A stretch of 64,000 bases of DNA from Flavipsychrobacter sp. (lineage in GTDB: Bacteria > Bacteroidota > Bacteroidia > Chitinophagales > Chitinophagaceae). This document shows positions 10,086 to 34,616 of this stretch, piece by piece. Location: assembly GCA_024508935.1 (NCBI GenBank), contig JANINW010000019.1, positions 154,823-218,822 on the forward strand, written 5' to 3'. The notes below the pieces were generated by a model, which worked only from the letters and a program-made list of their open reading frames with translations, did no database searches and was not told where the DNA came from. A program made the translations under genes and the position numbers. Position 1 is the stretch's first letter. Every line of letters starts with the position of its first letter.

Positions 10086-10230
10086 GCAGAGATTCAGTAA
10101 TTAGTGAGGGTCAATAAAATGCAGAAAAAGCTATGTGACACAACAATTTCTTTTTTAATGTGTTTTTAATCTCAACTATTTCTGTTGATATTAAGTTTAA
10201 GTCCGTTAACAACATCGTAAATTGCAGATA

Positions 10231-10929: not shown

Positions 10930-10931
10930 TA

Positions 10932-13691: not shown

Positions 13692-13699
13692 TAACTTTG
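13692..13699 (+). promoter_or_regulatory. TAnnTTTG -7 element of the TPR gene
   Basis: TAACTTTG lies 6 bases before the ATG at 13706. This implies a leaderless or nearly leaderless transcript. Confidence 0.45.
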
Positions 13700-13705
13700 T
13701 ATGCC

Positions 13706-15453: not shown

Positions 15454-18400
15454 ATGAAATGTTTTAACGTTCTACAAAAACCGGTATTGTTGCTATTGAT
15501 GCTGCTTGGGTGTATCAGTGCCCGTGCACAATATGCTACCCCGATAGCCTATCCTTTTACGGCATCATCCAAGCCATTCAGCTACCTGGTTGGTGGTTCT
15601 CCTGTAGGCAGCACTACACTGGGCACAGGGATATTGACAGATGATGGTGTGGTGACCGGTATACCGATAGGGTTTACTTTCCGCTATTGCAATGTAAACT
15701 ATACGCAATTGAGCGCCGCAGCCAACTGTTATTTATCGCTGTCCAACAGCAGTACAGCGCAGTGGACCAACAGCCAGGCAAATATGTCCGGCATTACGCC
15801 CATGCTCATGCCATTTTGGGATGATATGTATGGTAATTCATCAGGCGCGGCAGTAACTTATCTTACCAGTGGTGCTGCAGGCAGCCGTGTATTTACCATT
15901 GAATGGAAAAACTGGAGGCCATTGTCGTCTACCGGCAATCCTGAAATGACCATACAAGTAAAGCTGTATGAAGGCGCGAATGCCATAGAGTTTTTATACA
16001 AACAGGAATCGGGCACCTATAGCAGCTACACGGCCACAATAGGCATGGGTGGCACTACCAACGCTGATTATGCGGTGCTGAATAATTCGGGCGCTGCGCC
16101 TACGCCTTCGGCAACAACTTTTACGAACGGCATCAGTTCAAGACCCGCTACCGGGCAGAGCTACCTGTGGGGCTTGCTGAAAAAAGGCTTTAATAATGCC
16201 TCTGCTGCATCGGTGGCCAGTCCTACCGGTACTTTTTGTGCAGGCGTTACATTGCCTGTGTCTGTAGTGATAAAGAACAATGGTTTTAACCAGATCAACA
16301 ACCTGAAAATATACTGGTCGCTGGATGGCGGTACACCTACGCTTATCAACTGGAACACCCTGATAGATACATTGGGCAGTGTGCCCGGCAATGCAGCTAC
16401 AGTGAACCTGGGCAATATCTTCTTCGGAACCACTCCGCACAATTTCAAAGTATATACATCTGTACCCAATGGTATAGCAGATACGGTGAATGTAGATGAT
16501 ACATTAAACTTCGACCTCGGCGCGGCCCTGAACGGTGTGTACTATGTAGGTGGGCCTTCACCTGATTTTGCAACGGTGCAAGATGCCGCCGATGCCGTAG
16601 TAAAATGGGGTGTTTGCGGACCGGTGACCTTCAAAATAAGAAGCGGTACCTATATAGGACGTATAAACCTGGGTACTATATCCGGCGGCAGTGCAGTGAA
16701 CAGGGTGAGCTTTATTGCCGATGATGGTGTACCTGCATCATCCATAAACATCAATTATGCATCAACCGGTACAGGCGATAATTCAGTTATCAATTTCTCC
16801 GGTGCATCCTATGTGACCCTGAAGAACCTGACGATAAACAATACAACCAATGGTTCCGGTGGTACCGGGTCAGTGGTGTTCTTTGCAGCATCCAGCCCGG
16901 GTGATAGTATAATAGGCTGTACGATGAATACACTGGGTACGGTACAGAGCAGCAGCTATGCCTGTATCGCCAGTACTTCTACCGGTTACAACCTCAACGG
17001 GCTCACGATTATGAATAATACGCTGAACGGGTCTGCAGGCATCTATTACCTGTGGGGCACCAGCAGCAGTCCTATATCAGATTTCGTATGCAGCAATAAT
17101 ACAATCAATGCGTATTATATGGGTATTTACTACCTATACTATTTTAACGGCCCAATCATTACCAACAATAGTATAAATGGTACCAGTTCTTTCGCCAATT
17201 ATGGTATATACGAAGTGTACGGAAATGTTACCACTACAAAGCCGATGCTGATAGCGAACAACAGGATAAGGGGTTTTGTAACCTATGGACTGCTGGTAGA
17301 ATATCCTAAGGGAACATCTGCTACGAACAGGGCCAAGATCATGAACAATGTTATATTAAATACGGCACCCAATTCTTATGGGCTCATGGTGTACTACCCA
17401 GCCAATACAGATATGCTGAACAATACGGTTGTCATCAGCGGTGGTACATCTACCTCTACTTCTTATGCTGCCGGCTATTTCACACAAATAGGTGATAATA
17501 ACAGGATCATGAATAACCTGTTTGTAAACTATACTGGTTCCCCTGCCTACAGTCCTAACTTCAATACATCTTTTACCAATAACGAGGTGGATTATAATAC
17601 TTACTATACCACCGGCAGTGTATTTGCCTATGATATATGGAATGGTGTGAACCTGGCGGCTAATATGTCTGCGTGGCGTGCCTCTTCGTATTCTGCGCCT
17701 AATAAAGCAGACAGGAACTCTATATTCTACGACCCGGGTGTAAATCCAGTAACCGGTGTGCCTGATGCTTCAAACCCCGGTGCATGGGCCATTAACGGCC
17801 GCGGTAAACAGGTATTGGGCAACAATACAGATTTCACCGGAGCCGCGCGTCCTGATGTACTTGCAAATGGCGTGCCCGATGTAGGCGCATACGAACTGGA
17901 ACCTACTTCTGTACCGCCTTCAGCTATACCTAACGGCCCTGCCGTGGTGGGCGGTAAACAATACTTCCTGTTTGGCGGTGATACAGTAGCTTCTGTTACC
18001 TGGAATCCTGCTTTGGGTATTACAGATTCGCTGGATGTGAAAGTATACAGCGGCCGCAAAGCTCCGGGCTTCAACCTGGTGAGCCCAACCAAATTTATGT
18101 ACTTCTATACCGACATTAAACCAAGAAGCGCAGTGACAACATTTGATTTTAATACTGAAGTATATTATAAAGACCCGTGGCTGGGCACTATGCCAACAGA
18201 AGCTAATGTAAAGATGGCAGAAAAAGTAGGCCCTGTATGGGTAGCCTACAATGGTGTTGCAAGTGCTACTAATACAACACGCAATTTTATATCGGCACCG
18301 GGCCTTGCCAGCTTTGGCTATTTTACCGGTATTGACGATGGTACCATATTCTCGGCAATAGTAAAAGCTACAAGCTCTACCGTTATATGTAACGGCAGCC

Positions 18401-19533
18401 GTGTGGTACTGAAAGCCAATACGGGTACCGGCTATACTTACCAGTGGAACAAAAATGGTGCAGCAATACCCGGCGCAACACAAGACAGCCTGATAGTACT
18501 GCAGGCCGGGGATTATAGTGTAACGGTCACATCGTCGTTAGGTACCGCTACTTCTATCAGCATTACGGTAAGCACAATAGCTCCGCCAATGGCACAGATC
18601 ACAGCTTCAGGTGCGCTTACATACTGCCCGGGTAGCAACCTTACACTTACTGCTAATACAGGTGCGGGCCTTAGCTATCAGTGGCAATTAGGTGGCCTCG
18701 ATATTACAGGCGCTACCGGTACTACTTATGCCGTTAACGGCGCGGGTACGTATACGGTTAAGGTAAAGAACCTTGGGTGCTCCTCTACTTCCAATGCAAC
18801 TGTAGTTAATTCAGGCCCGTTGTCTATTACCCTGGGTAATGATACTGCTTTCTGCGAAAGCAAGTTCATACCATTTGTATTGGATGCAGGTGTGCCAGGG
18901 GCAAGGTACCAGTGGAGCACAGGAGATACTACTCAAAAAATCAATGTATTTAAAACCTCCGGCAATTATTGGGTAATAGTAAATGCAGGGCCTAACTGTA
19001 TAGATGCAGATACTATACACCTGGCCATAAACCCGCTGCCAAGTGTAAATGCTATTAATGCATTACCTGTGGGTACAAATACCTGGTCGTTCACACCAGC
19101 TGGTGGCCAAAACATTAATAACATACTTTGGATATTCCCTGATGGCACTACCAGCAATCAGAATACGGTACAGCATACCTTCCCCGACGGAAATGTAGTT
19201 GTACGGTTGGTGATGTATAACGATTGCGGTACAGACACTACTATGCTGATACGTTGGGTAACCAATGTAAATACCACCACCAGCGAAGGCTTTGATGTAA
19301 AACTGTACCCGAACCCGGCTAATGAGAATGTGACACTAAGCCTTGATGGTAATGTGTACCTGGAAGATGTCACTATACTGAACAGTGTAGGTGCAGTAGT
19401 ATATCGCAAGGAGATGGAGAACAGTGCGAAGGAAATAGCATTAGATGTTACGCCTTATGCCAGTGGTCAATACATTATCCGTGCCGGTACTTCGGCTGGT
19501 GTAGTAATAAAACCACTAAATATTGTAAAGTAG
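15454..19533 (+). CDS. T9SS cargo: beta-helix surface protein, array gene 1
   Basis: A 1359-aa secreted protein. The signal peptide ends near SARAQ (26). An N-terminal beta domain (about 27-240) starts YPFTASSKPFSYL and has YLTSGAAGSRVFTIEWKNW. A CARDB-like domain (about 250-355) follows. The right-handed beta-helix (about 361-810) begins GVYYVGGPSPDFATV, has Asn-rich rungs and ends VPDVGAYELEP. Then come a conserved GGKQYFLFG...FMYFYTDI domain (about 830-965), three Ig-like segments (975-1190), a PKD-like domain (about 1196-1270, WIFPDGT) and a type A T9SS sorting domain (1281-1359, VKLYPNPA...). It is expected to reach the surface through the type IX system. No catalytic motif is seen; adhesion or glycan binding is inference. 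Confidence 0.88.
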   Translation: MKCFNVLQKPVLLLLMLLGCISARAQYATPIAYPFTASSKPFSYLVGGSPVGSTTLGTGILTDDGVVTGIPIGFTFRYCNVNYTQLSAAANCYLSLSNSSTAQWTNSQANMSGITPMLMPFWDDMYGNSSGAAVTYLTSGAAGSRVFTIEWKNWRPLSSTGNPEMTIQVKLYEGANAIEFLYKQESGTYSSYTATIGMGGTTNADYAVLNNSGAAPTPSATTFTNGISSRPATGQSYLWGLLKKGFNNASAASVASPTGTFCAGVTLPVSVVIKNNGFNQINNLKIYWSLDGGTPTLINWNTLIDTLGSVPGNAATVNLGNIFFGTTPHNFKVYTSVPNGIADTVNVDDTLNFDLGAALNGVYYVGGPSPDFATVQDAADAVVKWGVCGPVTFKIRSGTYIGRINLGTISGGSAVNRVSFIADDGVPASSININYASTGTGDNSVINFSGASYVTLKNLTINNTTNGSGGTGSVVFFAASSPGDSIIGCTMNTLGTVQSSSYACIASTSTGYNLNGLTIMNNTLNGSAGIYYLWGTSSSPISDFVCSNNTINAYYMGIYYLYYFNGPIITNNSINGTSSFANYGIYEVYGNVTTTKPMLIANNRIRGFVTYGLLVEYPKGTSATNRAKIMNNVILNTAPNSYGLMVYYPANTDMLNNTVVISGGTSTSTSYAAGYFTQIGDNNRIMNNLFVNYTGSPAYSPNFNTSFTNNEVDYNTYYTTGSVFAYDIWNGVNLAANMSAWRASSYSAPNKADRNSIFYDPGVNPVTGVPDASNPGAWAINGRGKQVLGNNTDFTGAARPDVLANGVPDVGAYELEPTSVPPSAIPNGPAVVGGKQYFLFGGDTVASVTWNPALGITDSLDVKVYSGRKAPGFNLVSPTKFMYFYTDIKPRSAVTTFDFNTEVYYKDPWLGTMPTEANVKMAEKVGPVWVAYNGVASATNTTRNFISAPGLASFGYFTGIDDGTIFSAIVKATSSTVICNGSRVVLKANTGTGYTYQWNKNGAAIPGATQDSLIVLQAGDYSVTVTSSLGTATSISITVSTIAPPMAQITASGALTYCPGSNLTLTANTGAGLSYQWQLGGLDITGATGTTYAVNGAGTYTVKVKNLGCSSTSNATVVNSGPLSITLGNDTAFCESKFIPFVLDAGVPGARYQWSTGDTTQKINVFKTSGNYWVIVNAGPNCIDADTIHLAINPLPSVNAINALPVGTNTWSFTPAGGQNINNILWIFPDGTTSNQNTVQHTFPDGNVVVRLVMYNDCGTDTTMLIRWVTNVNTTTSEGFDVKLYPNPANENVTLSLDGNVYLEDVTILNSVGAVVYRKEMENSAKEIALDVTPYASGQYIIRAGTSAGVVIKPLNIVK

Positions 19534-19565
19534 GTTTATTGAATTGATTTTCAGTTGTTTAAATT

Positions 19566-19600
19566 AAAAATGCAGCGAACCCTTATTCGCTGCATTTTTA
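19566..19600 (+). terminator. Terminator of T9SS gene 1
   Basis: AAAAATGCAGCGAA and TTCGCTGCATTTTT pair perfectly around a 6-base loop, 32 bases after the stop. Confidence 0.8.
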
Positions 19601-19683
19601 ATTAGATAATAAAAGAGCGCTAATTGTGTACAAGAGATGAAAAAGATATTAAAAAAAAATTCACCCATTTAAATTTTATAATG

Positions 19684-19691
19684 TATATTTA
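19684..19691 (+). promoter_or_regulatory. TAnnTTTA element before T9SS gene 2
   Basis: TATATTTA lies 47 bases before the ATG in an AT-rich gap. It is weak evidence alone and is listed because all four array genes have one. Confidence 0.3.
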
Positions 19692-19738
19692 ATACCTGAC
19701 CAAAATCTGCTTGTTCACGTAATAAATCCTTCTTTGTT

Positions 19739-22700
19739 ATGCGAGTAAAAAATTACACTCCTTACATTTTGCTGACAGCCTTGTGCATGCTGTTTATGCA
19801 TTCAACATTTGCACAACCGGTAACCCTGATGTCGACTGGTACCTGTAGTGGCGGGTCCTCTACCAGTACGGGTAACTGTGAATCTTTTTCTGTAAGAAAT
19901 AACAGTGGTGGGCCTATTGTTATACGGGAGATACATAATTACCACTATGCATCACCAACCGGTGCGGGTACTTATGATCTATGGTACACTACTGTATCTG
20001 GCCAGGTAACCGGGGGGACAGCTACTATTTCTACACCCAACTGGATACAGGCTGCCGCCGGTGTAAGCGTAGGTGGTGCCAATGGTGTAAAACCTTTCTT
20101 TACCGGCCTTAGCATCATTTTGCAGCCGGGGCAAATCGGCAGGTTTGCAATAGTATTCCCTTATACAGTGGGCAGCAGTACTATATTCAGGCCGTCTAAT
20201 ACTATTGGATCGCAGATATATACTTCTGCAGGTGGTGTCGATCTGTTAGCCGGGTCGGCCAACGGTGTAAGTAATGCATTGCTGGGAAGTGGTTTGACAT
20301 TAAATAGTACCTGGAGCTTTTTAGGTGGTATCGTATATGAGATAGCCCTGAAAGGCATGAACAATGCCAGTGTATATAAAATCACCAGCCCGGTAAACTT
20401 TTGCCAGGGCACTTACCCGGTAGTGGTATCTGTTAAGAATTCCGGTAAGAACAAGATCAATAATGTAAAAATATACTGGCTGCTGGATGGTGTACCGCAA
20501 ACACCAATTAACTGGACCACACCAATAGATACTTTCGGCAGCGTAGGTGGTAATGAAGCACTGGTAACGCTGGGTAATGTAACATGGGGGGCTACACCGC
20601 ATACGTTTAAGATATATACCTCTTTACCTAACGGTGTAGCTGATACGGTAAATAACGATGATACAATTAACGTGACCAAAGGTGCAGCATTGAATGGTGT
20701 GTATACGGTAGGTGGTGCTGCACCGGATTATCCAACGCTTTCTTCGGCTATTACAGCACTTAATTCATGGGGTATTTGCGGGCCGGTAACGTTCAATTTG
20801 CGGCCTATAACACACACAGGTAATGTTGCCATCAATACCATATCCGGCGCGAGTGCAACAAACCGCGTTACTATCCAGGCTGAAAATGGAAATGCTGCCA
20901 GTACGGTAGTTTCCTATAGCGCAACAGGTAGTGCCGATAACTTTGTTATGAGCCTTAACGGGGCTTCTTATCTTACCATCAAGAACCTGACACTGAGCGC
21001 TACAGGTAGTAGTTATGGGTATGTAATGCCTATGAGTGGTACTGTGTCGAATGACAGTATCCTGAATTGTAACTTCCTTACCAGTAACGCTGCCAGTTCA
21101 TCTTTTGGCTGTATTTATGCCTCCGGTGTAAGTGGTAATAACGACAATATGGTGTTCAGGAAAAACCTGTTCTCGGGCGGCTATTATGGTGGCCTGTACT
21201 GGGGCGGTAACTCGGCATCTTATGCTGCAGGTATGGTCATAGATAGTAATACGATCAATAACCTGTACTACTACGGGTTATATGTATATTATACCAACGG
21301 TGTCAAGATACGTGATAACAACATCACCGGTTCTACTACCAGCTACTATCCGTTCTATATTCCTTATTGTTACCAGTCTCCGATCATTACCGGCAACAGG
21401 GTGGAATCGCAATATGGATATGGTATGTATATATTGTATGCACAAGGACTCAGCACCAGCAATAAAGGGCTTATAGCCAATAACAAATATGTTGGTAAAG
21501 GAACGACCACTCTTTATTATGGCTTGTATGCCAACTACCCGAACAATACCCGCATATATAACAATACAGCTTTTGTATATAATAACTACAGCAGCTGCTA
21601 TGCGTTTGAGGCATATATGAGTGGTTACTCCGGCAATGATATTAAGAACAACCTGGGGATTAATACAGGCGGTGGTACGGGTGCTTATCTCTACAGCGCC
21701 GGTACAAGCGCAAGCAACCCTTCTGATTATAATAACTGGTATAGTAATAGTACCAGTGCACCGTTTGTGTATAATGGTACTACCTATACATCATTCAATG
21801 CATTCAGAGGTGCATACGGAGATGATAAAAATACACTCTCTTATGACCCGGGATTGAAATTTGACGGTACGCCTAACCCGCTTGATCCGGGTGTTTGGGC
21901 TGTAAACGGGCGTGGTGTGCAAATAGCAGGTAATGCCGCTGATATTGATGGTAATCCAAGGCCAACGCTTGAAGCAAATGGTGTACCTGACCTGGGTGCT
22001 ATAGAAACGGTTCCGCAATGCGAACCGCCTTTGGCTGTTCCGGTTAATCCACCGGTTGTTGGTGCCAAACAATATTTCACATTTGGTTTCGATACGGTTG
22101 CCGCTATCAACTGGAATGCAACACTAGGCCTGACAGCTCCGTTGGAAGTAAGGCAGTATAGCGGCGCGAAAGCTCCGGGCTTCAATCTTATCAGCCCAAC
22201 TAAATTCATGTATTTCTACACAGATGTAAGGCCTATGAGTGGGCTGACAACTTTTGATTACAATGCGGAGATATACTATAAAGACCCTTGGCGCGGTACA
22301 ATGCCAACGGAAGCCAATATCAAACTAGCGGAGCTGATGAATGGTACCTGGTATGCCTATAACGGTAGCAATAGTGCTGCCAATACTACCCGCAATTTCC
22401 TTTCGGGTCCTGGCCTGGCACGTTTTGGTGCATTTACAGGTATAGATGACGGAACTATTTTCTCTGCTATTATAAAAGCTAAAGGATCTACCGTGATCTG
22501 TTATGGCAGCAACGTGACATTGAAATCGAATACAGGTGCGGGTTATACCTATCAGTGGAATAAAAACGGTGCCCCTATTGCAGGTGCTAACGAAGATAGC
22601 CTGGTAGTAAATACCGCCGGAGACTATAGTGTTACCGTAACATCTTCACAGGGTACTGCTACTTCTGTAAGCATCAACGTAAGCACTATAGCACCACCTA

Positions 22701-23644
22701 TGGCACAGATCACTGCTTCAGGTGCACTTACTTATTGCCCTGGCAGCAATCTTACCCTGAATGCCAATACAGGTGCTGGCCTGGCATATCAATGGCAACT
22801 GGGTGGCCTGGATATAGCAGGTGCTACCGGTTCTTCTTATACAGTAACCAGTGCAGGTACTTACACGGTAAGAGTTAAGAATATAGGTTGTGCTACCACA
22901 TCAAATGCTACAGCAGTAAGCCCCGGCCCATTGGCAATAAGCCTGGGTAATGATACTGCATTCTGCCAAAGCAAATACAAACCATTTGTACTGGATGCCG
23001 GAATCACAGGTGCCAAGTATCAATGGAGCACTGGTGATACTACGCAAAAGATCAATGTATATACCACATCCGGCGACTACTGGGTAATAGTAGATGCAGG
23101 TGTAAATTGTGTGGATGCAGATACGGTGCACCTTTCTGTTAGCCCGTTGCCAAGTGTCAATGCTATCAATGCATTGCCTGTAGGTACTAATACATGGGCA
23201 TTCAGCCCGGCTGGTCCTAAGAACGTGAACAACGTACTGTGGATATTCCCTGACGGAACAAGCAACAATACCAATACCCAGCACACTTTCCCTGACGGCA
23301 ACGTAGTGGTAAAGCTGGTAATGTATAATGATTGCGGTTCTGACACGACTATGCTCATCCGCTGGGCCACAAATGTGAATACCACAACAAATGAAGGTTT
23401 TGATGTGAAGTTGTATCCAAACCCGGCCAAGGAGAAAGTAATGCTGACACTGGAAGGTAATGTGTACCTGAAAGATGTAACCATACTGAATAGTGTAGGT
23501 GCTGTGGTGTATCGTAACGAAGTAAGCGGTACCGCTACTAAACAGGCAGTAATTGACATCACTCCATATGCAAGCGGGCAATATATTATCAGGGCAAATA
23601 CATCAGAAGGACCGGTGAATAAAGCACTGAATATCGTGAGATAG
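19739..23644 (+). CDS. T9SS cargo: beta-helix surface protein, array gene 2
   Basis: A 1301-aa paralogue with signal peptide ending STFAQ (26). Its N-terminal domain (about 27-205) is unrelated to those of genes 1 and 3: it opens with a Ser/Thr/Gly/Cys-rich stretch and has SFSVRNNSGGPIVIREIHNY. From about residue 215 it rejoins the family plan: CARDB-like domain, beta-helix (about 320-750, starting GVYTVGGAAPDYPTL), conserved FMYFYTDV domain, Ig-like segments, PKD-like domain (WIFPDGT) and T9SS sorting domain (1222-1301). The swap of only the N-terminal domain suggests different ligands on a shared chassis. It has its own terminator. Confidence 0.88.
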   Translation: MRVKNYTPYILLTALCMLFMHSTFAQPVTLMSTGTCSGGSSTSTGNCESFSVRNNSGGPIVIREIHNYHYASPTGAGTYDLWYTTVSGQVTGGTATISTPNWIQAAAGVSVGGANGVKPFFTGLSIILQPGQIGRFAIVFPYTVGSSTIFRPSNTIGSQIYTSAGGVDLLAGSANGVSNALLGSGLTLNSTWSFLGGIVYEIALKGMNNASVYKITSPVNFCQGTYPVVVSVKNSGKNKINNVKIYWLLDGVPQTPINWTTPIDTFGSVGGNEALVTLGNVTWGATPHTFKIYTSLPNGVADTVNNDDTINVTKGAALNGVYTVGGAAPDYPTLSSAITALNSWGICGPVTFNLRPITHTGNVAINTISGASATNRVTIQAENGNAASTVVSYSATGSADNFVMSLNGASYLTIKNLTLSATGSSYGYVMPMSGTVSNDSILNCNFLTSNAASSSFGCIYASGVSGNNDNMVFRKNLFSGGYYGGLYWGGNSASYAAGMVIDSNTINNLYYYGLYVYYTNGVKIRDNNITGSTTSYYPFYIPYCYQSPIITGNRVESQYGYGMYILYAQGLSTSNKGLIANNKYVGKGTTTLYYGLYANYPNNTRIYNNTAFVYNNYSSCYAFEAYMSGYSGNDIKNNLGINTGGGTGAYLYSAGTSASNPSDYNNWYSNSTSAPFVYNGTTYTSFNAFRGAYGDDKNTLSYDPGLKFDGTPNPLDPGVWAVNGRGVQIAGNAADIDGNPRPTLEANGVPDLGAIETVPQCEPPLAVPVNPPVVGAKQYFTFGFDTVAAINWNATLGLTAPLEVRQYSGAKAPGFNLISPTKFMYFYTDVRPMSGLTTFDYNAEIYYKDPWRGTMPTEANIKLAELMNGTWYAYNGSNSAANTTRNFLSGPGLARFGAFTGIDDGTIFSAIIKAKGSTVICYGSNVTLKSNTGAGYTYQWNKNGAPIAGANEDSLVVNTAGDYSVTVTSSQGTATSVSINVSTIAPPMAQITASGALTYCPGSNLTLNANTGAGLAYQWQLGGLDIAGATGSSYTVTSAGTYTVRVKNIGCATTSNATAVSPGPLAISLGNDTAFCQSKYKPFVLDAGITGAKYQWSTGDTTQKINVYTTSGDYWVIVDAGVNCVDADTVHLSVSPLPSVNAINALPVGTNTWAFSPAGPKNVNNVLWIFPDGTSNNTNTQHTFPDGNVVVKLVMYNDCGSDTTMLIRWATNVNTTTNEGFDVKLYPNPAKEKVMLTLEGNVYLKDVTILNSVGAVVYRNEVSGTATKQAVIDITPYASGQYIIRANTSEGPVNKALNIVR

Positions 23645-23671
23645 GAGCATTAAACTTCAATTATATTATTA

Positions 23672-23712
23672 ATACAAGCGAGTGGGGTTTGCCACTCGCT
23701 TGTATTTTTTAT
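23672..23712 (+). terminator. Terminator of T9SS gene 2
   Basis: A 15-bp stem (AATACAAGCGAGTGG with its complement, loop GGTTTG) is followed by TTTTT, 28 bases past the stop. Confidence 0.85.
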
Positions 23713-23860
23713 ATAAATAAATTGCATTTGTAAATTTTAATCTTAACATGACAAAAGGCCTAAAAAGAGTATTTTTTTAACCATAAATTAATACCAAAAC
23801 ACTTGTAAATACAGGGCATTCTGGTTCACCTTAAATTTTTCCAGCTTCATCTGTTTTTTT

Positions 23861-23890
23861 TTGGTGCATGTTAAACATTTAATAATTTTA
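23861..23890 (+). promoter_or_regulatory. Putative promoter of T9SS gene 3
   Basis: TTG at 23861-23863 and TAATTTTA at 23883-23890 are spaced 19 bases apart, the spacing known for Bacteroidota promoters. The element ends 32 bases before the ATG. The -7 box ends in A instead of G. Confidence 0.45.
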
Positions 23891-23922
23891 GAGGATTATA
23901 TTCGAACCTTTAAGCATGTAAT

Positions 23923-26900: not shown

Positions 26901-28002
26901 TTATGCATACCAATGGAATAAAAACGGTGCACCGATAAGTGGTGCTACACAGGATAGCCTGGTAGTAACACAAGCAGGTGACTATACTGTAACTATTACT
27001 GCTCCTGCAGGTACTGCCACTTCTATTACTATCACCGTAAGCACCGTTGCACCGCCAATGGCACAGATCTCTGCCTCAGGTGCACTTACTTATTGCCCTG
27101 GTAATGGCCTGAAACTGAGTGCTAATACTGGTGCCGGCCTGGCTTACCAATGGCAACTGAACGGCCTGGATATAAGCGGCGCTACTGCACAAACTTATAG
27201 TGTAGGTACAGCAGGTACGTATACTGTTAAAGTGAAAAACATAGGTTGTACCACTATTTCTAATGCAACGGTTGTAAATGCAGGGCCGCTGGTAGTAGGC
27301 CTGGGTAATGACACCGCATTTTGCCAAACCAAATACATACCATATGTACTGGATGCAGGCATAGCAGGTGCCAGGTATCAATGGAGCACCGGTGATACAA
27401 CACAGAAGATCAATGTGTACAATCAATCTGGTGACTACTGGGTAATAGTAAATGCAGGTCCTAACTGTATAGATGCAGATACGATCCACCTGGCTGTTAG
27501 CCCGCTGCCAAGCGTTAATGCTATCAACTCTCTGCCACTGGGTAATAATACTTATGCATTCAGCCCTGCAGGCGGACAGAATATCAATAACGTACTGTGG
27601 ATATTCGGTGATGGTACTACCAATAACAATTACACAGTGCAGCATACTTTCCCTGACGGAAACATCAACGTAAGGCTGGTAATGTATAACGACTGCGGAT
27701 CTGATACTGCAATGATCCTGCGCTGGGCTGCCAATGTTGGCAGCACCAATAATGAAGGTTACAATGTGAAATTGTACCCGAACCCTGCTAAGGAAAAAGT
27801 GACCCTTAGCCTGGATGGTAATGTGTTCCTGAAAGAAGTGACTGTACTGAACAGCGTAGGTGCTGTAGTATACCGCGGACAAGCAGGTAACAATGAAAAG
27901 AACATCACCGTTGACATCAGTGCTTTTGCAGCAGGTACCTATCTGATGCGCGCCGTAACAACCGACGGAACGGTTACCAAACCATTCAATATTACCAGGT
28001 AA
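23923..28002 (+). CDS. T9SS cargo: beta-helix surface protein, array gene 3
   Basis: A 1359-aa paralogue, exactly as long as gene 1 and with the same plan. Signal peptide ends RSEAQ. An N-terminal domain like that of gene 1 (YPFTASSKPYTYLTGG, YLTTGAAGSRVFTLEFKNW) is followed by CARDB-like domain (about 250-355) and beta-helix (361-807, starting GVYYVGGASPDFATV) with Tyr-rich rungs such as NNTINAYYIGTYYFYYLNG. The conserved FMYFYTDI domain, Ig-like segments, PKD-like domain (WIFGDGT) and T9SS sorting domain (1281-1359) complete it. Genes 1 and 3 are the closest pair in overall layout, while the C-terminal cassette DNA is closest to gene 4. Function unknown; surface adhesin is a plausible guess. 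Confidence 0.88.
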   Translation: MKYFNTAKSITLLVILILFSRSRSEAQFLTAASYPFTASSKPYTYLTGGTNISFYYGGYDDDYRDNIPIGFPFTFCGTTYTTVTAITNGWMQFGNASSSYYYYPASTSYLPYTAPSVFAGWCDAMGGSGWQVSYLTTGAAGSRVFTLEFKNWTNWSGSPATYISYQYKLYEGANAVELLYKQEAGTAGFASGAAIGIAKSTTDWQTLSNTSASPVSSSTVFNTSTIAGNRPATGQSYLWGVLKKGYNNASTASIASPSGTFCSGVTLPVSVIVKNGGLNQINNLKIYWILDGVPQPVINWTSMIDTMGSTGGNSATVNLGNIFFGAASHTFKVYTSLPNGIADTVNNDDTLSFTLGAALSGVYYVGGASPDFATVVDARNALVARGVCGPVIFKIRAGTYTGAIDLATVNGVSATNRVTFMPDDNVPASAVNINYAATGSGDNYVFQFNGASYITLKNLTINSTSSSSGYGRAIYFNSGSVNDSIVGCTLNAGNQSSTSSNYSCISTNTSGNNFNNLVLQNNTMNGSCGIYYLYGTSSNPTTGFVMENNTINAYYIGTYYFYYLNGAIIRKNTINATGGGNSYMGMYYIYLYGSNPTDISYNSVKGFYGYGMYVSNPTGASLTNRAKIMNNVIISNPSTMAYYGLMVYYASNTDIINNTVITVGPNASSTSYGTSYFYQMYGGNKIMNNLFANYSKGNPINANYPTGYSNNEYDYNTYYTNGTNFSYDPYYGTTTATLPAFRAYSYPAAYNADRNSVFYDPGVNQSTGVPNPADPGAWALNGRGKQVAGNNKDFTGAARPDILANGVPDNGAFELDPTSIPPLATPTGPAVVGGKQYFLFGFDTVASVTWNPTLGITDSLDVRVYSGRKAPGFNLVSPTKFMYFYTDIKQRGSVTTFDFNTEVYYKGPWLGTMPVEANVKMAEKVGPTWVAYNGSSSATNVTRKFISAPGLASFGAFTGIDDGTLFSALIKANGSTIICNGSKVTLKANTGTGYAYQWNKNGAPISGATQDSLVVTQAGDYTVTITAPAGTATSITITVSTVAPPMAQISASGALTYCPGNGLKLSANTGAGLAYQWQLNGLDISGATAQTYSVGTAGTYTVKVKNIGCTTISNATVVNAGPLVVGLGNDTAFCQTKYIPYVLDAGIAGARYQWSTGDTTQKINVYNQSGDYWVIVNAGPNCIDADTIHLAVSPLPSVNAINSLPLGNNTYAFSPAGGQNINNVLWIFGDGTTNNNYTVQHTFPDGNINVRLVMYNDCGSDTAMILRWAANVGSTNNEGYNVKLYPNPAKEKVTLSLDGNVFLKEVTVLNSVGAVVYRGQAGNNEKNITVDISAFAAGTYLMRAVTTDGTVTKPFNITR

Positions 28003-28028
28003 TCTTAAATACAAGTATAAAATCTCAG

Positions 28029-28056
28029 GCAGGCGGTATTAACCGCCTGCTTTTTT
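28029..28056 (+). terminator. Terminator of T9SS gene 3
   Basis: GCAGGCGGT-atta-ACCGCCTGC is followed by TTTTTT, 27 bases past the stop. Confidence 0.87.
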
Positions 28057-28093
28057 ATTGGATATTTCCAAGGTTATACGCTATCAGAAGTAA

Positions 28094-28117
28094 AAAAGCA
28101 CCATTTCGGTGCTTTTC
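28094..28117 (+). terminator. Second hairpin, tandem terminator or leader element
   Basis: AAAAGCACC-atttc-GGTGCTTTT is a clean 9-bp stem with a T-rich arm, 38 bases after the first terminator. It may be a back-up terminator. Confidence 0.6.
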
Positions 28118-28321
28118 GCATTTTAGTGTATAAGTGCGTGTCTGCCAGCTTTATTATGCAAAAATTAATGTCAAATATATTTTTTAATAAATTTTTAATC
28201 TAAAGCATGGTTTTTCGGACAAATATTTTAACTTTAAAAGCACACAACTTTAACAAATAATTAAATCATGTCTTTGTGATAGGATTTAACGCAATTTTTT
28301 AATAACAAAAAGTAAACGTAG

Positions 28322-31300
28322 ATGAAGCATTTTAACAAATTGAGACATTTCCTCACTTTGCTGGTAGCGGTAGTTGCAGGCTATATGCCTGCGTCCGCTC
28401 AGCTGGCAGGTGGCGTGTACACGGTAGGTGGCACGAGCCCGAACTATGCTACTATTACAGCTGCAGTTTCGGCAATGAGTGCAGGTATTACAGGTCCTGT
28501 CACATTTAACATCCGTCCCGGTACGTATGCAACGCCGGTAGCATTCACTGCTATTACAGGTGCATCAGCTACAAACAGGGTGGTGTTCCAGGCAGAAAGC
28601 GGTAAAGGTACCGTAACCGTTACTGCGGCAGGTAGCAGTACAACTAACAACTATGTATTCAGGTTTACCAATACTGATTACATAACACTGCGTAACCTTA
28701 CCCTGAGCAATACAGGTACTACCTATGGTGCTGCGGTTGATTTTGTGGGCACATCATCAAACGACAGTGTAGTAGGATGTTTGCTTACAGGTAGTACGGG
28801 TACTTCTACGTCACAGTACAAATCGCGTGTATATGCCAATGGCCATACCGGTACGGGTGTGGTTATATACCAGGATAGTATCATAAGCCCGTCTTATGGA
28901 GTGTATTGGTATGGTTCTTCAACCAGCGCATTGTCTAATAACACGGTGATAGCTAATAACACAATCGTTAATCCGTACTACAGTTGTGTATATACTTACT
29001 ATACCAATGGGCTGAAAGTATTAAACAACAACTCTCCGGCTGTAACAGGTGTGGGGACCTTTTACGCATATTATAACGGATACGGAAATAACCGTATAGA
29101 AGTAAGAGGCAACACAGCCAATGCAAGTGGTTCGGGCAGTATGTATGGTCTTGGTGTTTATTATTGCGCGGGTGATGCAGTTACTCCTGCATTACGAGGC
29201 AATTTCAGCAACAATAACATAACATTGAATACAACCGGTGGTTCTGTGTACCCGGTTTACAACTACTATTCACAATACGATAGTATCACCAATAATACGA
29301 TCAATGCGGTAACTACCTATTCTTCAGGTTACGCTTATATGTACCTGGCTTACAACGCACCGTATTCTGTTATATTGAATAATAATATCGTAGACTCTTC
29401 AGCTAATTATTACGCGTATAACTATGGCGTGTACTACGCCCCGTATTCTGTTGTGAAGAAGAATAATATCCGCCACTCTGCAGGCGGCAGTGGTTATTTC
29501 TACAACTACCCGCTTTATTACTCAAACTATGCGGTAGTAGATAGTAATACATTTATATATCTTAAAAGCGGTACCAGCGGTTATTTGTACAATAACGGTG
29601 GTTCGGGTGGCTATGCTTATTATTCAGACTATGTGAGTGTAAGCGGCAATACTATGCAGCACCTGCTGCCAAGTTCCAGCGGCTACCTGTATGGTGGTAT
29701 GTTCTACTACTGTAACTATGGTGTATGTAAGAACAATAATATGATGAACTATGCAGGTAACACATCAGCTTACCTGTATGGCTACTGGAGCTACTATGGT
29801 AGCAATAACACGCTTGATAATAACTATATAGTAGACTCATGTGGTTATTACACCTACCTGTACAATGGTTATTATTCTCCAAACGTTACCTGGAGCAACA
29901 ATACGCACCGCATGTATTCAGGTACTTATTATATCTACGATTACCGTAGCTATTATGGTGCAGGAGGCAACCGTATCCTGAACAATAATTTCTATTATAC
30001 ACAGGGCAATAGTTCATACACCACCTACAACTATATGATGTATGGTGTACCTAATACACAATATGTAGGTAATACCGTAAGGGCAAACGTAGCCGGTTCT
30101 TATTATGGGTATACTTACCAGGGTTCTGCATCTTATTCTAATGCAACATTTGCGAATAACGATATCAGCGTTACATCTACCGGTGGTGGTACCGTATATG
30201 GTTTGTATTTCCAGTATCCGAATTTCGATACCATTTTCAATAACGTGGTAAGTACTGCTACATCGGGTACCAACTATACGGCTTATATCTATTACCCGTA
30301 TGGTGGCCTGAACCATATTTATAACAATACCTTCAATAGTAATGCAACGGGTGGTACCAACTATACCTTGTACGACTATAACCCGGGTTCATATTCCGGT
30401 ACTACTAAGTATACCAACAATATCATTTCCCGTATGGGCAACTCAGGCCAGGCGCCTTTCTGCATGTATTCGAACGCCTATGTAACGGCCAGCGATTACA
30501 ACAATATATACGCGCCCAATACGCCTTTAATGACCATCAGCAGCACCGGTTATAATACCATATCTGCTATAAGAACAGGTACTATTTATGAGAAAAATTC
30601 ACTCTCATACAACCCTGGTTATGTAAATGCTGCTGGCGGCGATCTGCACCCTGATCCTAACAATCCGTCTGCATGGTCTGTAAACGGCCGTGGTATACAC
30701 ATTGCAGGTAACAATACCGACCGCTCTGGTGCTACCCGTTCTATAACACCTGGTACAGGTGTACCTGATTTAGGTGCTTATGAGTTTGTACCACTGTCAT
30801 CTCCGCCGGCTTGTACGGCTGCTCCGGCAGCACCTGTGGCAGGCGGTACGCAGGTATTCACCTTCGGGCAGGATACTGCAGCCGTTATTACATGGGATGC
30901 AACAGCCCCTGTTCCTTCGGCTATTACCGTTAAACAGTTCAGCGGTGCAGTAGCACCAACACTGACAGGTTTTAATGCTACCTATATGTACTTCTACGAT
31001 TCAATAGGGGTAACAGGTACAGGCGCATTTAACTATACTGTGAAGAATTATTATAAAGATCCATGGATAGGTACTATAGCTTCTGAAAGCTCATTGAGGC
31101 TGGCTAAAAAAGACCTGGCATGGGTGGGTTACCCTGCTACAGCTGGTAACAGCACCGTATGGAACCAGTTCACCACCGCGGGCCTTTCTACCTATGGCCT
31201 GTATACAGGTATAGATGTTTCCAACAATGCCAGTGCCAATTCAGTGGCGGCACCATCAGGCAGCTTCTGCCCGGGCACTTATCCAACATCTATCCGTATT

Positions 31301-34300
31301 ACCAATAACGGTAATAATGTAATTAACAGTGTACAGCTTTGCTGGAAAATAAACGGCGGCAGCACTTCATGTACTACTATTACAGCACCTATACCTGTAT
31401 TCAACGGGACTATAGGTAGTAATGCCATTAGTGTACCGATAGGTAATATCCTGTATGGTACGGGCAACGTGAACATTTTTGCGTGGACCTCAACACCAAA
31501 CAGTGTAGTAGACCCTGCCAATGGTGATGATACCCTGAATATAAATATGCACTCTGCATTGTCTGGTGTATATACTGTGGGTGGTGCTACACCTGATTTC
31601 ACAGATGTGATAACCGGTGTCAATGCACTTAAAACTTACGGTATGTGCGGCCCTGTTATTTTCAAAGTACGTGCAGGTTCTTATGCAGGTAATATAGACC
31701 TGACCAATGTATCAGGCTCAAGTTCTGTAAACCGCTTTACTATGCAGGCCGATGATAATGTTCCGGCTTCAAGCGTAAACATCAGCTATTCTGCTACGGG
31801 CACAGGCGATAACTATGTTATCCGCCTCAATGGCCTGAACTATGTAACGCTGAAGAACCTGACATTTAATGCAACAGGCGGCTCTTATGGTTATTGTATG
31901 ACCTTTGCCGGTGCGCAGAATAACTACGACAGTGTGATCGGTTGTACTTTCAATACAGCTTCTATTTCTAACAGCTATTTTGCGGGTATCTATTGTTATA
32001 ACTTAACCACACCAAACTACCTGGTGATTAAGAACAATACCGTGAACGGTGGTTACTATGGTATGTCGTTCTACTCGACTACCTCAAATACACCGGGCCT
32101 GGTTATTGATAGCAATACCATTTCAAATGTGTATTACTATGGTATCAACTACATCTATTATTTCGATGGTGCCAAAGTGCGGTATAATAACATAAGCACC
32201 ACATCAACTTCAGCTTATTATGGTTTGTACTATTTCTATTGCTCTGGCAATACGCTGCCTATCGAATTTATAGGTAATAGGATATCCGGCTTCTACGGTT
32301 ACGGTACGCTTATTTACTACCCTTATGGTACAGCTGCCAATCGTTCAATTATCCGAAACAATATCATTACTTATAATGGTACCAGCACATCGTATTACCA
32401 GTTGTTCTGCGGCTATAGTACTTATACCGATGTGATCAACAATACGGCTATCAATGCAGGTGGTGCATCATCATCTACATCTTACTGCCCTGGTTATATT
32501 TATTTCTCCAGTTATACAGGCAGCCGTGCATATAACAACCTGTTTGCAAACTATTCAGGCGGTCCGGCTATGTATTGCTATTTCTATGGTGGTTATTCGC
32601 AGGCTTGTGATTATAACAACCTTTATTCAAGTGGCACAAGCCTTGTGTATGATGCTTATAACGGTACCACCTATGCTAATCTCGGCACATGGAGGTCATC
32701 CAGCTTTGCATCTACTACCCTGGGCGGATTTGATAAAAATTCTATCTCTTATAATCCGGGTGTAAATACCACTACAGGCGTACCAAATCCTGCTGATCCG
32801 GGAGCGTGGGCAGTAAATGGCCGCGGTGTTCAGATGTTGGGTAACAACAAGGACATCAATGGCGCTGCTCGTCCGGATGTACTGGCAGCCGGTGTACCGG
32901 ATGTAGGTGCGGTAGAAATCGATCCTACTTCTATACCACCACTGGCTACGCCTACAGGCCCTGCTGTGGTAGGCGGCAAACAATACTTCCTGTTTGGTTA
33001 CGATACGGTTGCTTCTGTAACCTGGAACCCGACATTGGGTATTACTGATACGCTGGAAGTAAGGCAATACAGTGGCCGTAAAGCACCGGGCTTCAACCTG
33101 GTGAGCCCAACCAAGTTCATGTACTTCTATACAGATATCAAACCAAGGAGCACTATCAGCACGTTCGACTATAATACCGAAGTGTACTATATGGCGCCAT
33201 GGTTAGGCACTATGCCTGTAGAAGCCAATGTGAAAATGGCTGAAAAAGTGGGTACTACATGGGTAGCTTATAACGGAAGTAACAGTGCTACCAATGTAAG
33301 TCGCAAGTTCATATCGGCTCCGGGCCTTGCAGCCTTCGGCGCATTCACTGGTATCGACGATGGTACCTTGTTCTCTGCACTGGTAAAAGCAAATGGTTCA
33401 ACTATAATTTGTACCGGCAGCAAGGTGACTCTGAAAGCCAGCACAGGTACCGGATATAGCTACCAATGGAATAAGAATGGCGCACCTATAAGCGGTGCTA
33501 CGCAAGATAGCCTTGTGGTAACACAGGCCGGTGACTATAGCGTTACGATCAATGCACCTGCAGGCACGGCTACATCTATTACAATGAATGTAAGTACTGT
33601 AGCTCCGCCAATGTCGCAGATAACTGCATCAGGTGCGCTTACCTATTGCCCGGGCAATAACCTGACACTGATGGGTAATACCGGTGCAGGCTTGTCATAC
33701 CAATGGCAACTGAATGGCCTGGATATCTCCGGTGCTACTGCGCAAAACTATGCTGTAGCTATGGCCGGTACTTATACCTTAAAGGTGAAGAATATTGGTT
33801 GTACCACTACTTCTAATGCAACTGTTGTAAATGCAGGTCCGCTGGTGGTAGACCTTGGAACAGATACTACCTTCTGCCAGACCAAATACATACCATTTAT
33901 ACTGGATGCAGGCGTACCTGGTGCCAAATACCAATGGAGCACAGGTGATACTACACAGAAGATCAGTGTATCAACGAAATCCGGTGATTACTGGGTACTG
34001 GTAAATGCAGGCGCTAATTGCGTAGATGCAGATACGATACACCTGTTGGTTCACCCGCTTCCAAGCGTGAATGCGATCAACTCACTGCCATTGGGTAACA
34101 ATACTTATGCATTCAGCCCTGCCGGTGCACAGAACATCAATAATGTATTGTGGATATTCGGCGATGGTACAACCAGCAATAGTTATACTACGCAGCATAC
34201 CTTCCCTGACGGAAACGTTATTGTAAAACTGGTAATGTATAACGATTGCGGATCTGATACAGCAATGATACTGCGTTGGGCAACTAATGTGGGCAGCACA

Positions 34301-34555
34301 ACGAGCGAAGGCTTTGATGTGAAATTGTATCCAAACCCTGCCAGCGATAAACTGACACTGACACTGGACGGCAATGTGTACCTGAAAGATGTGACCATAC
34401 TGAACAGTGTAGGTGCAGTGGTATATCGCAGCGAGGTGAATGATAATGCCAAACAGGCTGTCATCGATGTAGCTCCGTATGCTAATGGCCAGTATATAAT
34501 AAGAGCCAATACATCGGAAGGTGCGGTAAGTAAACCGTTCAACATTGTGAGGTAA
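28322..34555 (+). CDS. T9SS cargo: giant double beta-helix protein, array gene 4
   Basis: A 2077-aa protein, the largest of the array. The signal peptide ends PASAQ (about 27) and the beta-helix starts at once (GVYTVGGTSPNYATI, about 31); the N-terminal domain of the paralogues is absent. Helix A (31-815) contains about ten Tyr/Asn-rich repeats of about 28 residues at roughly 315-600. A divergent FMYFY-type domain (841-965, here ATYMYFYDS) and a CARDB-like domain (968-1080) lead into helix B (about 1081-1525, GVYTVGGATPDFTDV). The common cassette follows: FMYFYTDI domain (1550-), Ig-like and PKD-like domains, and T9SS sorting domain (1999-2077). It looks like a fusion or duplication of two family units. 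No catalytic residues are evident. Confidence 0.88.
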   Translation: MKHFNKLRHFLTLLVAVVAGYMPASAQLAGGVYTVGGTSPNYATITAAVSAMSAGITGPVTFNIRPGTYATPVAFTAITGASATNRVVFQAESGKGTVTVTAAGSSTTNNYVFRFTNTDYITLRNLTLSNTGTTYGAAVDFVGTSSNDSVVGCLLTGSTGTSTSQYKSRVYANGHTGTGVVIYQDSIISPSYGVYWYGSSTSALSNNTVIANNTIVNPYYSCVYTYYTNGLKVLNNNSPAVTGVGTFYAYYNGYGNNRIEVRGNTANASGSGSMYGLGVYYCAGDAVTPALRGNFSNNNITLNTTGGSVYPVYNYYSQYDSITNNTINAVTTYSSGYAYMYLAYNAPYSVILNNNIVDSSANYYAYNYGVYYAPYSVVKKNNIRHSAGGSGYFYNYPLYYSNYAVVDSNTFIYLKSGTSGYLYNNGGSGGYAYYSDYVSVSGNTMQHLLPSSSGYLYGGMFYYCNYGVCKNNNMMNYAGNTSAYLYGYWSYYGSNNTLDNNYIVDSCGYYTYLYNGYYSPNVTWSNNTHRMYSGTYYIYDYRSYYGAGGNRILNNNFYYTQGNSSYTTYNYMMYGVPNTQYVGNTVRANVAGSYYGYTYQGSASYSNATFANNDISVTSTGGGTVYGLYFQYPNFDTIFNNVVSTATSGTNYTAYIYYPYGGLNHIYNNTFNSNATGGTNYTLYDYNPGSYSGTTKYTNNIISRMGNSGQAPFCMYSNAYVTASDYNNIYAPNTPLMTISSTGYNTISAIRTGTIYEKNSLSYNPGYVNAAGGDLHPDPNNPSAWSVNGRGIHIAGNNTDRSGATRSITPGTGVPDLGAYEFVPLSSPPACTAAPAAPVAGGTQVFTFGQDTAAVITWDATAPVPSAITVKQFSGAVAPTLTGFNATYMYFYDSIGVTGTGAFNYTVKNYYKDPWIGTIASESSLRLAKKDLAWVGYPATAGNSTVWNQFTTAGLSTYGLYTGIDVSNNASANSVAAPSGSFCPGTYPTSIRITNNGNNVINSVQLCWKINGGSTSCTTITAPIPVFNGTIGSNAISVPIGNILYGTGNVNIFAWTSTPNSVVDPANGDDTLNINMHSALSGVYTVGGATPDFTDVITGVNALKTYGMCGPVIFKVRAGSYAGNIDLTNVSGSSSVNRFTMQADDNVPASSVNISYSATGTGDNYVIRLNGLNYVTLKNLTFNATGGSYGYCMTFAGAQNNYDSVIGCTFNTASISNSYFAGIYCYNLTTPNYLVIKNNTVNGGYYGMSFYSTTSNTPGLVIDSNTISNVYYYGINYIYYFDGAKVRYNNISTTSTSAYYGLYYFYCSGNTLPIEFIGNRISGFYGYGTLIYYPYGTAANRSIIRNNIITYNGTSTSYYQLFCGYSTYTDVINNTAINAGGASSSTSYCPGYIYFSSYTGSRAYNNLFANYSGGPAMYCYFYGGYSQACDYNNLYSSGTSLVYDAYNGTTYANLGTWRSSSFASTTLGGFDKNSISYNPGVNTTTGVPNPADPGAWAVNGRGVQMLGNNKDINGAARPDVLAAGVPDVGAVEIDPTSIPPLATPTGPAVVGGKQYFLFGYDTVASVTWNPTLGITDTLEVRQYSGRKAPGFNLVSPTKFMYFYTDIKPRSTISTFDYNTEVYYMAPWLGTMPVEANVKMAEKVGTTWVAYNGSNSATNVSRKFISAPGLAAFGAFTGIDDGTLFSALVKANGSTIICTGSKVTLKASTGTGYSYQWNKNGAPISGATQDSLVVTQAGDYSVTINAPAGTATSITMNVSTVAPPMSQITASGALTYCPGNNLTLMGNTGAGLSYQWQLNGLDISGATAQNYAVAMAGTYTLKVKNIGCTTTSNATVVNAGPLVVDLGTDTTFCQTKYIPFILDAGVPGAKYQWSTGDTTQKISVSTKSGDYWVLVNAGANCVDADTIHLLVHPLPSVNAINSLPLGNNTYAFSPAGAQNINNVLWIFGDGTTSNSYTTQHTFPDGNVIVKLVMYNDCGSDTAMILRWATNVGSTTSEGFDVKLYPNPASDKLTLTLDGNVYLKDVTILNSVGAVVYRSEVNDNAKQAVIDVAPYANGQYIIRANTSEGAVSKPFNIVR
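29264..30125 (+). repeat. Coding repeat: about ten 28-residue Tyr/Asn units
   Basis: Within T9SS gene 4 the protein repeats a pattern of the form Y-x-x-Y-x(5)-N-N-x-hydrophobic-x(8-12)-G-Y-x-Y-x(4)-Y. Examples are APYSVILNNNIVDSS, APYSVVKKNNIRHSA and SNYAVVDSNTFIYL. Unit length is mostly 28-29 residues with one longer copy. Over residues about 420-559 I count 33 Tyr in 140. DNA copies are degenerate, so it is a protein-level repeat. Confidence 0.75.
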
Positions 34556-34577
34556 AAAAGAACCAGTATTTTTGGTC

Positions 34578-34616
34578 AATATCAAAAGGCGGCTATATGC
34601 CGCCTTTTGATATTGT
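34578..34616 (+). terminator. Terminator of T9SS gene 4
   Basis: AATATCAAAAGGCGG and CCGCCTTTTGATATT pair perfectly around a 7-base loop, 23 bases after the stop. Confidence 0.8.

Follow-up and report, generated by a model that had tools for sequence, protein, structure and literature searches.

Four adjacent genes of Flavipsychrobacter sp. probably encode a small family of paralogous proteins, exported by the T9SS, whose modules are interchangeable in evolution (a reading to which we give a probability of about 0.6). T9SS cargo genes are numerous and mostly uncharacterised, and the separate trees of the modules point here to a mode of cargo diversification in which the export tail is kept and the outer end is exchanged.

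Organization of the locus

The four genes lie on the forward strand of the window, that is, the whole stretch of 64,000 nucleotides that was analysed. A sequence-only reading had described them as four adjacent T9SS genes for proteins of 1301–2077 aa, and all four open frames were confirmed, each full-length and with its own signal sequence and tail: W1 (15454–19533, 1359 aa), W2 (19739–23644, 1301 aa), W3 (23923–28002, 1359 aa) and W4 (28322–34555, 2077 aa). W1 is composed of a signal peptide, an N-terminal head (HEAD1, aa 27–244, 15532–16185), a CARDB-like domain, a beta-helix, an FMY domain (aa 816–965, 17899–18348), three Ig/PKD-like domains, a PKD domain and a T9SS type A tail. In W2, a signal peptide and another head (HEAD2, aa 26–205, 19814–20353) precede a body of the W1 kind. 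W3 has the domain order of W1 and is a mosaic of HEAD1 (aa 27–244, 24001–24654), the CARDB-like domain with the beta-helix (aa 245–815, 24655–26367) and a stretch from FMY through the three Ig/PKD-like and PKD domains to the tail (aa 816–1359, 26368–27999). The order in W4 is helix-FMY-CARDB-helix-FMY, three Ig/PKD-like domains, PKD and T9SS tail, with the first helix-FMY unit at aa 32–966 (28415–31219), the second helix and FMY at aa 1083–1683 (31568–33370) and the type A sorting domain at aa 1994–2077 (34301–34552). W1–W3 are placed between W4 and a TPR gene on the same strand (13697–15196, 499 aa, Pfam TPR).

A hairpin follows each gene on the forward strand. The one 3′ of W1 (19562–19603) has 18-nt arms that are 100% complementary and is absent from the list of terminator-like matches; those 3′ of W2 (23671–23706), W3 (28027–28052) and W4 (34577–34615) are terminator-like. 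Terminator-like matches are mildly more frequent than in shuffles (21 versus 14.8, sd 3.5), promoter-like matches are at shuffle level (50 versus 49.6), and a Bacteroidota promoter pattern was not found upstream of W1–W4.

The type A sorting domain lies above the curated cut-offs of PF18962 (Pfam) and TIGR04183 (NCBIfam) in all four proteins, in W2 by a narrow margin (23.4 versus 23 bits). These domains had been called almost identical; they are indeed of one type throughout, with pairwise identities of 58–80% that do not justify the term. SprA is encoded in the same genome (TIGR04189, 2629 bits for a cut-off of 200), and with the type A tail as export signal all members would pass through SprA/PorV and reach either the surface or the medium.

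Probably portable heads and a genus-conserved body

W1 and W3 had been proposed to share one N-terminal domain. Their heads do belong to the same family, with an identity of only 46%, and are not each other's closest relatives. HEAD2 is, as anticipated, a different domain that profile comparison finds unrelated to HEAD1, and the same comparison among all head families gave no relation. Searches of Pfam returned no match for HEAD1, and none between the heads and known adhesive domains. HEAD1 is present in 94 of the 296 genomes sampled across the phylum, and in 11 of 11 loci fetched from other genera it starts at residue 19–43 of the open frame, before different bodies. Its profile, which among the four proteins concerns W1 and W3 only, aligns with residues 22–225 of chain D in PDB entry 8gl6, a chain that carries the label RemA (E=9e-39). 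A relationship of HEAD2 with SdrD was considered and set aside, the match reaching only E=0.011. Structure models of HEAD1 with CARDB (from a two-row alignment) and of HEAD2 with CARDB (one row) have a mean pLDDT of 41 and are useless.

The fourth gene had been described as having no N-terminal domain. This description fails, as a second, longer helix-FMY unit stands in the place of the head; it resembles the T genes of contig C3 in the same genome (34–36% identity to T1–T4). All 14 genus relatives possess the helix-FMY-CARDB-helix-FMY form, and in 13 of them the TPR gene is directly upstream of the W4-type gene, the match ending about 0.25–0.7 kb before it. Judged from these layouts, W4 is the genus-conserved form and not a headless variant. 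Conservation of the array itself in relatives is not borne out, since 11 of the 14 carry a single body gene at the locus in the stretches that were fetched. W1–W3 correspond to the second half of a W4-type body (CARDB-like, beta-helix, FMY, Ig/PKD and type A tail) fitted with separate N-terminal heads.

The presence of the W4 type, which has no separate head, in all 14 relatives is also what would be expected of surface-layer or matrix proteins, whose helices and Ig domains build a coat or biofilm matrix and whose heads serve in assembly or capping and bind no foreign ligand. The long helices rich in Asn, Thr and Tyr, with no recognised catalytic family, are compatible with such a role. We regard it as rather unlikely, because HEAD1 begins a RemA-family protein and precedes different bodies across the phylum, for which a portable functional unit is a better fit.

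The shared body

A common body cassette had been proposed from the translations, and its existence is well established by the alignments: W1, W2 and W3 are 59–69% identical pairwise over the 1088–1111 residues that align between CARDB and the C-terminus, and the second half of W4 is 65% identical to W3, values that cannot be ascribed to chance. The FMYFYTD domain is likewise common to all four proteins, W4 having a second, more divergent copy. This domain is rare (5 of the 296 phylum genomes, the present one included) and has no match among solved structures at E up to 1. A scan of a genome-contig collection yielded 61 loci, in nearly all of which the alignment starts no earlier than about query residue 660, within the Ig/PKD-like and tail parts; module HMMs detected the helix in one of them (L066) and the head, CARDB and FMY in none.

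Right-handed beta-helices are frequent in polysaccharide lyases and hydrolases, and the array could in principle degrade polysaccharides, the helix being the enzyme and the heads directing it as carbohydrate-binding modules. Within the helix body, at least 90% of 26 helices retain the charged residue or Cys at five positions (R56, D122, C127, D353 and R381, numbered as in the W3 helix), which leaves some room for catalysis. However, W1–W4 contain no catalytic family of Pfam or NCBIfam, in keeping with the earlier remark that no catalytic motif is seen. Among the columns conserved at 90%, Asn, Gly and other non-catalytic types are in the majority, the other five charged ones are located at the C-terminal end, and the neighbours that were scanned (part of the window's open frames) include no recognised genes for polysaccharide utilisation. 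An enzymatic array is thus improbable.

Probable mosaic origin of W3

Evidence for exchange comes from W3, in which the head, the front of the body and the back of the body each have a different closest relative, as the suggestion of head swapping would have it. In a tree of 40 heads, that of W3 forms a clade (100/99) with Ca, a gene of the C11 array in the same genome, to which it is 81% identical. A grouping of the W1 and W3 heads is rejected (AU p=0.00024), as is one of W1, W3, Ca and Cb (p=0.0053); the branches of W1 and Cb, both long, come together in this tree. The switch point is near residue 240–245 of W3, at the border between head and CARDB. Beyond it, CARDB and helix of W3 are sister to W1 (SH-aLRT 100 in a quick tree), with W3+W4 rejected at p=8e-55. 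From FMY to the end, W3 groups with W4 (99/95) and W1+W3 is modestly rejected (p=0.036). This disagreement of module trees at module borders very probably reflects modular exchange. The longest exact matches among W1–W4 do not exceed 44 bases, so exchange at W1–W4 is not recent.

Plain tandem duplication and divergence, in which the W1 and W3 heads stem from one headed ancestor and have simply evolved faster than the tails, with no exchange, would account for the head being the least conserved part of this pair (46% identity versus 58–87% for the other modules). It would also agree with the front part, for which W1–W4 as a single clade is not rejected (p=0.17). It is nevertheless very improbable, given that the W3 head is nearer to Ca, which belongs to another array and has another body, and that W1+W3 heads are rejected. 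HEAD2 and GEVED heads without profile relation to HEAD1 are found on the same body, and the genus relative G013 offers the converse case of like heads on unlike tails.

Other arrays and possible recombination between copies

Pairs with unrelated heads on tails that are 60–82% identical are found in three further arrays, and unrelated heads on like tails are seen in other arrays of the same genome and of two genus relatives. Tails are 60–70% identical in the C11 array, and 65–75% or 82% identical in such pairs of G013. In the genus relative G003, a GEVED head precedes the same body as that of the W genes, and HEAD2-like and HEAD3-like heads precede helix-FMY bodies. G013 also has one pair with heads 63% alike and tails 35% alike, and many pairs of its six-gene array have unlike tails as well (34–48%).

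Neighbouring T3 and T4 share 1268 identical bases of tail, which could be due to gene conversion or to an assembly fault, the assembly being a draft of 98 contigs. At fourfold sites, the figures are 227/227 versus 96/226 for T3/T4 and 182/268 versus 55/146 for a G013 pair, and purifying selection alone is disfavoured as the cause of like tails in these two cases. It is weakly disfavoured for W3/W4 and W1/W4, and is not disfavoured for W1/W3, W1/W2, W2/W3, T1/T2 and the pair of the relative G010. Five of nine paralog pairs display no difference between front and back at these sites and two more a weak one (p ~0.025, uncorrected); homogenised tails are therefore not general. We put forward, as a tentative and somewhat doubtful extension, a pool of at least five unrelated heads (HEAD1–4 and GEVED) that moves between four or more constant bodies, with several arrays in each genome. 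Exchange might then be genus-wide and still active, the conserved tails, homogenised in some arrays by gene conversion, might be a recombination platform, and each species might assemble its own surface binders.

The mosaic genes and the 1268-bp identity of T3/T4 do indicate recombination between copies, yet a programme of antigenic or phase variation, with the arrays as a reservoir from which heads move by recombination into an expressed gene, is most improbable, as each of W1–W4 is a full-length frame with a signal sequence, a tail and a hairpin after it, their short exact matches show that exchange there is not recent, the interval 13000–36000 has no more than five inverted repeats of ≥18 nt (two of them hairpins after genes), and neither long flanking inverted repeats in that interval nor incomplete head cassettes among the four genes were found.

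Functional implications

If the locus is a family of interchangeable modules, the head would be its contact surface, adhesin- or lectin-like, and the Asn-ladder helix with the Ig/PKD domains would act as a spacer. Exchange of a contact surface on a constant export body would change what is bound and leave export undisturbed. In F. johnsoniae, the tail is reported to decide the destination of the cargo (accessible part of PMC12618676), so that replacing the head while retaining the tail would alter the target and not the destination. That the heads bind is about an even bet, perhaps slightly better, the one basis being analogy with the RemA-family relative of HEAD1. The proteins most likely serve in attachment, be it to surfaces, to polysaccharides or to other cells. 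HEAD1, widespread (94/296 genomes), without a Pfam match and related to the RemA family, is a target for structure determination and ligand screens.

Comparison with known systems

Among the matches listed in the open-access literature, no array of this kind is described in titles or abstract openings. The closest single proteins are RemA and RemZ, T9SS type A adhesins of Flavobacterium johnsoniae. RemZ is a RemA homologue trapped as a substrate, in which only the CTD is well resolved (accessible part of PMC10994853). The homology with HEAD1 lies at the N-terminus (the comparison being with 8gl6 chain D), and the type A sorting tail is a feature in common with W1–W4. In contrast, no lectin family appears among the listed matches of W1–W4 (E up to 1), the W genes have the helix-FMY body, and HEAD1 is missing from W2 and W4. 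As regards gliding, the GldJ model in the present genome is under its cut-off (319 versus 458 bits).

TANFOR polymorphic toxins of Bacteroidetes combine a constant and a variable part in a Bacteroidota host, as here (available text of PMC7073777). Unlike these, as far as that text goes, the W genes have a variable N-terminus and a constant C-terminal sorting tail, and no toxin family of Pfam or NCBIfam is found in W1–W4.

CshA NR2/GEVED adhesins and fibrillar adhesins, in the accessible parts of PMC10952558 and PMC8286594, probably share with the W genes an N-terminal head, a long multi-domain stalk and a C-terminal anchor. The anchors listed there include Por_Secre_tail, which W1–W4 contain together with PKD/Ig-like domains. 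The GEVED domain, treated in PMC10952558 (same part) as a partner or stalk domain and not as a proven binder, also heads the W sister gene in G003. The differences are that W1–W4 match no known adhesive domain of Pfam and that exchange here takes place between near-paralog arrays within one genus. The array would be a variant within a known kind, that of domain-shuffled adhesins.

Domain architecture of the four tandem genes

The four tandem genes W1-W4 are a genuine and informative example of head exchange among T9SS cargo proteins. ORFs are found at the positions that the sequence-only reading had assigned to them, and its coordinates are right. W1 and W3 consist of a signal peptide, an N-terminal head of the HEAD1 family, a CARDB-like domain, a beta-helix, the shared FMYFYTD domain (FMY), three Ig/PKD-like domains, a PKD domain and a C-terminal T9SS sorting region (tail). 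W2 keeps this order with a head of the HEAD2 family, while W4 runs helix, FMY, CARDB-like domain, helix, FMY, three Ig/PKD-like domains, PKD and tail. 'CARDB-like' and 'FMY' are working labels; for the former, Pfam gave no CARDB match. The helix is recognized from a W2 Pfam match below cut-off (22.2 vs 25.9 bits), a match above cut-off (35.2 bits) in the genus relative G003 and a conserved Asn ladder with a spacing of mostly 23-30 residues. All four proteins carry type A T9SS tails above cut-off, which are 58-80% identical; SprA is found in the same genome, where the GldJ model gives a match below cut-off.

Four separate transcripts are likely, judging from the sequence, because hairpins follow the genes (terminator-like 3′ of W2, W3 and W4; a perfect 18-nt hairpin, missing from the terminator-like list, 3′ of W1) and the regions upstream of W1-W4 are dissimilar. 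Downstream, the array adjoins a class D beta-lactamase-like gene (34701-35558, + strand) with a Pfam transpeptidase domain and an NF012161 score of 238.3 bits, slightly below the cut-off of 250. Elsewhere in the window, a NosD-like beta-helix protein (62809-63834, - strand) and the adjacent ABC-2 type permease (61335-62102) are possibly parts of a nos cluster.

Conflicting histories within W3

The strongest evidence for head exchange is the conflict of histories inside W3, together with the repetition of the pattern in other arrays. Two of these lie in the same genome. On contig C11, four helix-less genes of 609-675 aa (Ca-Cd) combine a head with a CARDB-like domain, Ig-like domains and a tail; Ca and Cb carry HEAD1, Cc HEAD3 and Cd HEAD4, and tails 60-70% identical lie beneath unrelated heads. 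On contig C3, T0 is made of HEAD1 and a tail, and T1-T4 of helix, FMY and tail; the first half of W4 is 34-36% identical to T1-T4.

The head of W3 is 81% identical to that of Ca vs 46% to that of W1, and the head tree (n=40) joins W3 and Ca (100/99). Grouping the W1 and W3 heads is rejected (p=0.00024), as is W1+W3+Ca+Cb (p=0.0053); in this tree the long branches of W1 and Cb come together. Along W3, identity to Ca is 70-95% over residues 41-240 and 36-75% thereafter, while identity to W1 rises from 6-67% to 65-80% at a switch point near residue 240-245. A quick tree of CARDB-like domain plus helix (n=23) places W3 as sister to W1 (SH-aLRT 100) and rejects W3+W4 (p=8e-55). From FMY to the end (n=25), W1-W4 form a single clade (100/100) containing W3+W4 (99/95); W1+W3 is rejected (p=0.036), as is W4 with 13 rows of 11 other genus genomes (p=9e-117). 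For the front part, neither a single W1-W4 clade (p=0.17) nor W1+W3+W4 (p=0.46) is rejected.

Unrelated heads in other arrays

Profile comparison of HEAD1, HEAD2, HEAD3, HEAD4 and a further head family, GEVED, gave no pair with a probability above 20. Unrelated head pairs are 21-32% identical, about the level of a shuffled control (one head, 20 shuffles: 26%, maximum 31%). HEAD1 occurs in 14 of the 15 genus genomes and in 94/296 genomes of the phylum, and HEAD2 in 6/59 relatives (own genome included in each count). In loci of other genera (best matches only, on stretches without C-termini), HEAD1 starts at residue 19-43 in 11/11. Near the C11 array, an 806-aa protein (L171 6280-8700) has a HEAD2-like N-terminus, 39% identical to HEAD2 over part of the domain (profile probability 98.7).

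The relative G013 has six consecutive same-direction T9SS genes with several unrelated heads (L165 3718-15485). Some pairs in this array share 61-75% identical tails under unrelated heads; one pair has heads 63% alike on tails 35% alike, and other pairs are unlike in both (tails 34-48%). Another G013 array, of five genes, includes one with HEAD3; its tail shows 82% identity to the tails of three HEAD1 genes in the array, with 60% for the fourth.

Tails kept alike

The neighbours T3 and T4 on contig C3 are identical over 1268 bases, from the helix end to near the stop (L022 14280-15547 and 17961-19228), while their helices agree at 96/226 fourfold sites. The 1268-base identity may be an assembly error. 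A G013 pair shows the same step between the two parts (182/268 fourfold sites vs 55/146 in the third helix, p=4e-9). Among nine pairs tested, a weak step appears in W3/W4 (p=0.024) and W1/W4 (p=0.027), and none in five others. All of these p-values, that of the G013 pair included, are uncorrected for the nine tests.

The locus in relatives

W3 is matched at E<=1e-10 in 34/39 genomes (own included). Each of the 14 genus relatives has a gene of the W4 type containing two or three helix-FMY units, and in 13 of them it lies just downstream of a TPR gene; the TPR match is absent at the G003 locus. Within the fetched stretch (~20 kb), 11/14 relatives have a single body gene there. Two occur in G003, in G010 (in tandem) and in G011 (on separate contig ends); the G001 gene also runs into a contig end, its tail lying outside the sequence. 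G013 has two additional W4-type genes elsewhere. The extra G003 gene sets a GEVED head (PF20009, 65 bits) before the same CARDB-helix-FMY-Ig-PKD-tail body, and a second G003 locus has helix-FMY bodies with HEAD2-like and HEAD3-like heads. Upstream of the TPR gene in the window, a response regulator and histidine kinase (10222-12320, + strand) both have matches close to the W4-type genes of G013 and G001. A 170-aa protein (13005-13517, - strand), whose sole Pfam match is an EGF-like model below cut-off, is matched in 8/20 stretches compared.

Putative function and known systems

Function is the least secure part of this reading. For HEAD1, a match was obtained to the N-terminal part of PDB 8gl6 chain D, which carries the label RemA. 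PMC12618676 reports that the tail decides cargo destination and that type A tails use PorV and support static anchoring or release. PMC10952558 defined GEVED, groups it with stalk or partner domains and argues that adhesins are assembled through domain shuffling; in PMC8286594, Por_Secre_tail is one of the anchors listed for fibrillar-adhesin-like proteins. Given this match and these sources, W1-W4 are putatively surface-exposed or released, and the head is a candidate contact domain. The locus is no new kind of system; it is a variant of domain-shuffled adhesins.
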